A stretch of DNA of 64,000 nt, taken from positions 1,922,001-1,986,000 of the forward strand of contig NZ_CCBB010000001.1 in the NCBI RefSeq assembly GCF_000613185.1, written 5' to 3'. This document shows, piece after piece, positions 9,276 through 9,773 of the stretch. Numbering within the stretch: the stretch's first letter is position 1; the number at the start of each line of letters is the position of its first letter. The translations under genes were made by a program, and so were the position numbers. The DNA is from Mycolicibacterium cosmeticum. Lineage in GTDB: Bacteria > Actinomycetota > Actinomycetes > Mycobacteriales > Mycobacteriaceae. The notes under the pieces were generated by a model. It saw only the letters and a program-made list of their open reading frames with translations. It made no database searches and was not told the origin of the DNA.

Positions 9276-9347
9276 ATCGGTGTCAAACCTACCGCTGCAC
9301 GGGGACACTTTTTGCGTCGACGGCTTGCTTGGTGGCACACTCGAAAC

Positions 9348-9407
9348 GTGCTCCAGCAGCAGGGACGATTTTTTTACGGGTACCGATCCGCGGTGCCCGT
9401 GGTCTAG
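9348..9407 (+). CDS. Predicted Phe/Tyr leader peptide of the chorismate mutase gene
   Basis: A 19-residue reading frame, GTG to TAG, just before the chorismate mutase gene. It holds consecutive codons for Phe-Phe-Tyr-Gly-Tyr (9369-9383), the end products of the pathway. Its stop at 9405 lies just before the hairpin at 9418-9450. This is the arrangement of amino-acid attenuation leaders. The ribosome-binding site is weak (GGTGG 12 bases upstream), and the frame is open further upstream, so the exact start is uncertain. The composition and position are seen; function is inferred. Confidence 0.6.
   Translation: MLQQQGRFFYGYRSAVPVV
9376..9400 (+). promoter_or_regulatory. Leader hairpin overlapping the Tyr codons (pause or pre-emptor structure)
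   Basis: ACGGGTACC (9376-9384) can pair with GGTGCCCGT (9392-9400) around a 7-nt loop, with one T.G wobble. A stalled ribosome on the FFYGY codons would prevent it. CCGCGG at 9388-9393 can instead pair with CCGCGG at 9423-9428, which would break the downstream terminator hairpin; this is a plausible antiterminator. Confidence 0.45.
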
Positions 9408-9417
9408 CTGCTTCCCA

Positions 9418-9450
9418 GAGCCCCGCGGTCCGCATCCGGATCCGGGGCTC
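9418..9450 (+). terminator. Predicted attenuator terminator before chorismate mutase
   Basis: GAGCCCCG (9418-9425) and CGGGGCTC (9443-9450) form a perfect 8-bp GC-rich stem. A moderately T-rich stretch (GTCTGTTGTG) follows, 63 bases before the aroQ start. It begins 11 bases after the leader-peptide stop codon. Mycobacterial terminators often lack a strong U tail. Confidence 0.5.
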
Positions 9451-9512
9451 GTCTGTTGTGTGAGGCCCGAAACCGGATGAAACCAGAACCCACCAACAGT
9501 GAGGAGTCATCC

Positions 9513-9773
9513 ATGAGTCTCGAAACCGACGCCCCCAGCATCGACGACCTGCGCCTGGAGATCGACCGGCTGGATGCCGAGATCCTGGCCGCCATCAAGC
9601 GGCGCAAAGAGGTCTCCCAGACCATCGGCAAGATCCGGATGGCCTCCGGCGGCACCCGGCTGGTGCACAGCCGGGAGATGAAGGTGATCGAGCGCTACAG
9701 CGAGCTCGGCCCCGAGGGCAAGGACCTGGCGATGCTGCTGCTGCAGATGGGTCGCGGCCGGCTCGGCCACTAA
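9513..9773 (+). CDS. Chorismate mutase, AroQ-delta type (intracellular)
   Basis: Converts chorismate to prephenate, the branch point to Phe and Tyr. It has 86 residues from ATG 9513, supported by GAGGAG six bases upstream; ATG 9477 would add 12 residues. It closely resembles Rv0948c, including RLEIDRLDAEI, MASGGTRLVHSREMKVIERY and the C-terminal GRGRLGH. That tail, in the M. tuberculosis enzyme, takes part in activation by the DAHP synthase complex. The length is typical of the family. It is preceded by the predicted Phe/Tyr attenuator. Confidence 0.95.
   Translation: MSLETDAPSIDDLRLEIDRLDAEILAAIKRRKEVSQTIGKIRMASGGTRLVHSREMKVIERYSELGPEGKDLAMLLLQMGRGRLGH

Follow-up and report, generated by a model that had tools for sequence, protein, structure and literature searches.

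The window analysed here is a 64,000-nucleotide stretch of the Mycolicibacterium cosmeticum genome, and it contains aroQ, a gene for a stand-alone type II chorismate mutase whose closest solved chain is Rv0948c (2qbv, E = 2e-38). The divergent neighbour across the intergenic region is a Pfam UvrD-helicase gene, which we take to be uvrD1. Between uvrD1 and aroQ there follow, in this order, a promoter-like motif, a short leader ORF starting with GTG, a hairpin designated 1:2, a putative terminator hairpin and an imperfect U-rich tail. The features of the locus, in window positions, are:

9311..9316, + strand: -35-like motif TTTGCG
9333..9341, + strand: extended -10-like motif TGGCACACT (predicted promoter)
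9348..9407, + strand: leader ORF, GTG start at 9348, TAG stop ending at 9407, 19 codons, peptide VLQQQGRFFYGYRSAVPVV*
9369..9374, + strand: regulatory codons Phe8-Phe9, TTT TTT, conserved as Phe in the leader alignment
9375..9401, + strand: hairpin 1:2, arms 9375-9385 and 9391-9401, holding the Tyr codons 9375-9377 and 9381-9383
9384..9402, + strand: arm 2 of the proposed antiterminator, from duplex tests and constrained folds
9418..9433, + strand: arm 3, 5' strand of the terminator and proposed pairing partner of arm 2, from duplex tests and constrained folds
9418..9450, + strand: predicted terminator hairpin 3:4, 8-bp lower stem GAGCCCCG/CGGGGCTC and 6-bp upper stem
9451..9460, + strand: imperfect U-rich tail GTCTGTTGTG, from sequence
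9501..9506, + strand: Shine-Dalgarno-like GAGGAG of the mutase, from sequence
9513..9773, + strand: aroQ, stand-alone type II chorismate mutase, 86 aa (Pfam CM_2, E = 5.9e-11)

The original prediction for this locus was of a 19-codon leader with Phe and Tyr codons ahead of a chorismate mutase, and the translation of 9348-9407, which ends in ...GRFFYGYRSAVPVV*, together with the CM_2 match, bears this out. Its spacings were right to within a base (the terminator hairpin begins 10 nt past the leader stop and ends 62 nt before the ATG at 9513), and the second hairpin that it had drawn over the Tyr codons does contain both of them. Folding of 9348-9512 gave -78.1 kcal/mol (z = -4.7), and none of 200 shuffles was equally stable. 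Among the 693 short ORFs of the window (ATG or GTG start, 8-45 aa), this leader is the one with three consecutive Phe/Tyr residues. A covariance model found a single copy of the element in the 6.46-Mb source genome (E = 6.6e-43), and at the pheA (PF00800), type II DAHP synthase (PF01474) and pheS (PF01409) loci of that genome there is no short upstream ORF with two adjacent and at least three Phe/Tyr codons. Rfam gave no match in the window at or above the gathering score; matches below the cut-off were at chance level, e.g., Trp_leader at E 4.2 and, in locus L194, suhB at E 0.005, and no Phe leader family of Rfam was hit.

Among named species, Mycolicibacterium canariasense comes closest, with an AroQ that is 99% identical. 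A homologous leader, typically reading VLN.Q.RFFYGYR.AVPVV, was found at 101 of 110 mycobacterial-type AroQ loci; the 110 loci come from two overlapping sets, hence the 101 leaders correspond to 83 distinct sequences. The leader is absent at the other nine (L002, L003, L028, L034, L044, L046, L048, L061 and L071), and L012, L030 and L104 keep one Phe codon, in the form [RG]FICGC. At L029, L087, L090, L092, L093, L096, L102, L108 and L110 the leader is some 10 residues longer, the additional codons lying between the start and RFFY. The records behind L035, L044 and L089, titled Acidobacteria or Bifidobacterium breve MAG, have mycobacterial-type aroQ regions and are probably misnamed or contaminated bins.

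A genus covariance model, built on 88 distinct sequences, matched 178 of 198 genomes of the genus at E 0.01, five of them weakly (E > 1e-6) and 173 at E < 1e-10; 25 of the 198, some of them incomplete, are without a strong element. At the family level, strong matches (E < 1e-10) occur in 48 of 221 genomes and in the genera g1, g10, g12, g18, g22 and g24 of 31, and 40 regions sampling other genera are mostly without the leader. A tally at E 0.01, weaker matches included, reaches 104 genomes and 20 genera. Seven of the weaker matches were examined (L153-L158 and L172, E 4.9e-10 to 2.5e-5); none adjoins aroQ or has an FFYG leader, and they were set aside as off-target. L156 and L172 lie near genes that are presumably infC- and rplT-like, and they may mark another leader structure. 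At the order level, a second model at E 1e-7 matched 127 of 249 genomes and 39 of 68 genera; the sole match of genus g9 (G252/L154) falls in a known off-target place, and its removal brings the totals to 126 genomes and 38 of 68 genera. Forty of the 127 matches, from ten families, were examined, and all 40 lie upstream of a chorismate mutase, called by tblastn in 34 cases, by Pfam in five and by tblastn with a closer query in one. Judged by these matches, the element is not a mycobacterial speciality but appears to recur across many actinobacteria.

Phe stands at the first sensor codon of 98 out of 100 family-level leaders (Tyr in the other two) and of 40 out of 40 order-level ones, where Phe or Tyr and then YG mostly follow; six order-level matches whose start is shifted by a base were counted in their true frame. 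The second sensor codon is Phe in 86 of the 100 family-level leaders. In all 81 mycobacterial leaders the first sensor codon is TTT, a rare codon, used for 13 of the 347 Phe residues that 24 long ORFs of the window encode. Of the 100 family-level leaders, 77 have Tyr as the third codon and 90 have it directly after Gly, the two Tyr codons being replaced in 23 and 10. Because the Tyr codons sit in a paired arm, their conservation is partly structural. With ribosome edges assumed to lie at about 12-13 nt, a ribosome at Phe8/Phe9 would cover the 5' arm of hairpin 1:2 and free arm 2, and a stall at the second Tyr codon would leave arm 2 partly covered; this geometry, together with the conservation of the Phe codons, points to Phe as the primary signal. 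Joint sensing of Phe and Tyr, as originally proposed, is thus upheld by the alignment for the near-invariant Phe codons and not for the Tyr codons, which are variable and paired. We suggest that the leader would sense charged tRNA-Phe, with a possible contribution from Tyr.

Upstream of the leader, TTTGCG or TTTTGC occupies the -35-like position in 98 of the 100 loci with enough upstream sequence. The extended -10-like motif is exact in 93 of the 101 leader loci, has one mismatch in seven and is absent, with four mismatches, in one. The start codon, GTG in 100 of the 101 leader loci and ATG in one, lies 6 or 7 nt past the motif (at most one mismatch allowed) in 100 of the 101. A simple consensus scan called no promoter at the locus. 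With a spacing of 6-7 nt, the RNA is predicted to begin right at the start codon, i.e., the leader would itself be leaderless, and in the window the RNA probably starts at or adjoining GTG 9348. Since the conserved promoter-like motif ends 6 nt before 9348, the predicted transcription start falls at the leader and not below 9400. At L002, L034, L118 and L119, an in-frame aroQ start stands 6-7 nt after the motif; the attenuator is missing and aroQ looks leaderless, as if everything between promoter and gene had been deleted.

The two hairpins were assessed in three alignments: A1, of 88 distinct regions; A2, of 45 sequences picked for diversity out of 100; and A3, of 61 picked to span families out of 140. 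Rows in all three are related and not independent, and compensatory cells are not counts of events. In A1, both hairpins together are paired in 95.4% of cells (the terminator helix alone in 94.9%), against at most 49% in slid controls, and six pairs are changed on both sides, a number reached by none of 500 shuffles. In A2, hairpin 1:2 is paired in 94.5% of cells and 5 of its 11 pairs are compensatory (0 of 500 shuffles); the terminator is paired in 93.5%, and 3 of the 8 pairs of its lower stem are compensatory, values as high being found in 8 of 500 shuffles for pairs, 5 for cells and 1 for score. In A3, 7 of 10 pairs of hairpin 1:2 are compensatory, over 32 cells (0 of 500 shuffles). The lower stem of the terminator there has 37 cells changed on both sides, matched by 0 of 500 shuffles for cells and for score; its number of compensatory pairs was reached by 97 of 500. 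Both hairpins therefore covary in the family and order alignments, and the compensatory changes that relatives were expected to display are found.

Hairpin 1:2 lies in coding sequence, and the substitutions within it suggest that base pairing overrides the peptide. Seven mycobacterial rows have GGA instead of GGG as the Gly codon, and six of them have a matching change on the other arm, where Pro CCC becomes Ser TCC in L007, L015, L020, L039 and L081 and Phe TTC in L045; L011, the exception, has no matching change. At the g24 loci L163-L166, the hairpin is re-formed from different bases and the downstream peptide is altered, while the preceding FF or YF is kept. As for the terminator, the simple consensus scan did not call the hairpin at 9418-9450. 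The longest T run after the stem is at most 3 in 78 of 81 mycobacterial sequences and 4-6 in 10 of 19 sister-genus sequences, and the imperfect mycobacterial U-tract is our main doubt about the attenuator reading. The tail GTCTSTTGTGTGAGGCC (window 9451-9470; A1 columns 98-112) recurs in many mycobacterial rows despite the poor U-tract.

An attenuator of this type also calls for an alternative fold, which had been proposed as a pairing between two copies of CCGCGG. The copies are present at 9388-9393 and 9423-9428, as claimed, but the pair is not conserved as written: columns 24/70 are unpaired in 43 of 88 sequences, and no pair is changed on both sides among the 88, so that we rejected it as a conserved antiterminator pair. 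It would instead be the local form, in one of two registers, of a wider pairing between arm 2 and arm 3. Those registers, A and B, overlap, and neither fits all rows: register A alone is paired in 94% of cells in Mycobacterium versus 52% at the order level, and register B alone in 75-90% depending on the group. In A2, both registers are above shuffles by some measures and not by others. Register A is weak in A1 (25 of 500 shuffles) and not above shuffles in pair types in A2 (499 of 500). Register B in A2 is above shuffles in cells and score, and not in pairs changed on both sides (313 of 500) or pair types (358 of 500); its extension CGUGG/CCACG is paired in 85% of cells from sister genera, in 64% of those from Mycobacterium and in 31% across the order, where the alignment is unsure.

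When arm 2 and arm 3 of the window are tested as a duplex, 176 of 2000 shuffles pair equally well. Across the order, in 54 of 61 sequences arm 2 forms a stronger duplex with its own arm 3 than the median one with an arm 3 taken from other groups (the rows being related, the Wilcoxon p of 3e-10 should not be read as an actual probability), and the native duplex is in the best 5% of shuffles in 37 of 61. At the family level, with one row of 100 (L166) left out, the duplex is in the best 5% in 15 of 18 sister-genus sequences versus 15 of 81 in Mycobacterium, whose mean z of -0.83 is hardly above composition. Pairing of arm 2 with arm 3 thus appears supported over the order and weakly so inside Mycobacterium. 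In constrained folds of the window, a ribosome at the stop codon leaves the terminator alone to form, and a stall at codon 8, 10 or 12, with arm 4 not yet made, lets arm 2 pair with arm 3; when relatives were folded at two stall positions, some rows paired elsewhere. Equilibrium folds favour the terminator even when the ribosome is stalled; antitermination would therefore have to be kinetic.

We consider it likely that the region is a ribosome-mediated transcription attenuator of the trp/pheA type that senses charged tRNA-Phe and controls aroQ. Transcription would begin at or adjoining GTG 9348, as the promoter motif suggests, and the leader would be translated from the RNA 5' end. With ample Phe-tRNA, the ribosome would reach the stop codon at 9405-9407 and cover arm 2, the hairpin at 9418-9450 would form and RNA polymerase would stop. 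With Phe-tRNA short, the ribosome would stall at Phe8/Phe9 on the 5' arm of hairpin 1:2, arm 2 (9384-9402), left uncovered, would pair with positions 9418-9433 on the 5' side of the terminator, and the polymerase would enter aroQ. Without translation, hairpins 1:2 and 3:4 would both form and aroQ would be off. The evidence comprises the leader and its conserved Phe codons, the covariation of the hairpins, the tendency, seen across the order, of arm 2 to favour the arm 3 of its own sequence, and the linkage to chorismate mutase, seen as CM_2 in the window and at 40 of 40 order-level loci. The originally proposed logic of trp/pheA attenuation is supported by the leader codons, hairpin 1:2 and the pathway gene, the regulation itself being a prediction. 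We count against it the weak arm 2/arm 3 pairing in Mycobacterium, the competing registers, the imperfect U-tract, and the 9 of 110 loci and 25 of 198 genomes without a strong element.

Several of these points would also suit a mycobacterial attenuator that has partly relaxed, in which the terminator and leader persist, antitermination is weak and aroQ transcription is mainly constant and low. In its favour, the arm 2/arm 3 signal is weak in Mycobacterium, whereas it is strong over much of the order and in the sister genera, where 15 of 18 sequences fall within the best 5%; the imperfect mycobacterial U-tract also fits, as does the repeated absence of the element, including loci with the motif beside a leaderless aroQ start (L002, L034, L118 and L119). 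A relaxed sensor should, however, lose Phe8, and all of the 81 mycobacterial leaders have it, in the form of the rare codon TTT; we regard this explanation as unlikely. The poverty of U runs in the mycobacterial tail would fit with an upstream ORF that acts on aroQ translation or on Rho-dependent termination rather than through an intrinsic terminator, as proposed for mycobacterial cysteine upstream ORFs, and passages of PMC13236596 report translation attenuation for M. smegmatis cysteine genes. Yet the aroQ Shine-Dalgarno sequence lies outside both conserved hairpins, the terminator stem covaries, and a run of 4-6 T follows the stem in 10 of 19 sister-genus sequences, which together make action of this kind quite improbable here.

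The strong conservation of the mycobacterial peptide RFFYGYR.AVPVV could, in turn, mean that the leader encodes a functional small protein and that RNA structure is secondary. This we find very hard to believe, as the leader varies in N-terminus and length and the peptide past the Phe codons is wholly different where the hairpin has been rebuilt (L163-L166). Attenuation of transcription in response to Phe-tRNA remains the reading that we prefer, by a wide margin.

Of the systems described so far, two come nearest, pheL-pheA of E. coli and aroR-aroF of C. glutamicum. As passages of PMC11802643 describe, pheL-pheA likewise has a Phe leader peptide through which Phe-charged tRNA controls chorismate mutase activity. 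The E. coli pheA product is a fused mutase-dehydratase, whereas here the mutase stands alone and the leader is predicted to be leaderless, with two adjacent Phe codons. The C. glutamicum aroR-aroF attenuator is reportedly the work of Neshat et al. in 2014. Passages of PMC4046766 and PMC11802643 describe it as an actinobacterial leader with Phe-Tyr-Phe codons in aromatic synthesis, and by that description it resembles the present element; aroR-aroF controls DAHP synthase, not chorismate mutase. Leaderless polycysteine upstream ORFs of mycobacteria are said to have been reported by Canestrari et al. in 2020. By the title given in the reference list of PMC13236596, they are short leaderless frames whose regulatory codons stand ahead of biosynthetic genes, similar to what is predicted here, but they concern cysteine and are called translation attenuation in passages of PMC13236596, whereas we propose Phe and transcription attenuation. 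The same 2026 paper describes, in passages, ilvB1 attenuation in M. tuberculosis, with an upstream ORF, antiterminator and Rho-independent terminator in a mycobacterium as here; ilvB1 is another gene and senses branched-chain amino acids, in contrast to the predicted sensing of Phe.

The original prediction knew of no attenuator reported for this chorismate mutase, and we found none for it in the literature searched (titles and abstract openings). Passages of a 2005 survey of actinobacteria (PMC1262725) give trp, ilvB, cys and leu elements and ileS T-boxes, and no conserved structures for other amino-acid pathways. Rv0948, chorismate and phenylalanine do not occur in the main text of PMC13236596, nor in the main texts of two papers on the mycobacterial translation landscape (PMC9094748 and PMC4633059). 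As far as this literature goes, the proposed attenuator is new for aroQ, and its kind is already known from trp/pheA. Its unusual traits are the predicted leaderless start, how widely it occurs and an architecture that the aroQ elements apparently share with those before DAHP synthase described below; no new principle is involved. Control of stand-alone AroQ in actinobacteria has been described as allosteric, via a complex with DAHP synthase. C. glutamicum is such a case, with an allosteric AroQ-DAHP synthase complex, in passages of PMC11802643. As stand-alone AroQ sits at the branch point to Phe and Tyr, a conserved Phe switch would add control of gene expression, and it would offer, in mycobacteria, a Phe attenuator that is both simple and testable. 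The element is an RNA family missing from Rfam, and its apparent losses and gene swaps form a comparative set on attenuator evolution and on leaderless coupling of translation to transcription.

At the class level, a third model matched 51 of 296 genomes at E 1e-5. Twenty of the 51 matches were examined, one of which (L238) belongs to the order; ten lie before a chorismate mutase and ten before a DAHP synthase-like gene, nine of the latter in family f31 and one in f41. Pfam confirmed DAHP_synth_1 in 5 of 5 DAHP synthase-like genes tested. At L226, L227, L229-L232, L234 and L236, the leaders, such as FWRFYGYRP or FWYGDGP, add Trp to Phe and Tyr, and the leader, hairpin and terminator lie at about 380-500 (gene orientation), upstream of DAHP synthase. 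The f41 leader (L233) reads SYFSYRHLPG, and L235 is without such a leader at the match. By their codons, the Phe/Trp/Tyr leaders before DAHP synthase are a possible all-aromatic attenuator, and the DAHP synthase loci may be relatives of C. glutamicum aroR-aroF.

With somewhat more doubt than belief, we put forward that all of these descend from a single ancestral leaderless aromatic attenuator that would predate the split of several actinobacterial orders. It would have served as a portable sensor cassette, tuned to Phe before chorismate mutase in most lineages, tuned to Phe, Trp and Tyr before DAHP synthase in another family, and removed where aroQ is translated straight from the same promoter; its response would be set by kinetic folding and by rare-UUU decoding after a leaderless start. 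Most of the leaders before DAHP synthase begin with ATG or GTG 6-7 nt after CATACT, TATAGT or TATATT, and these boxes are nearer to the standard -10 than the mycobacterial form is.
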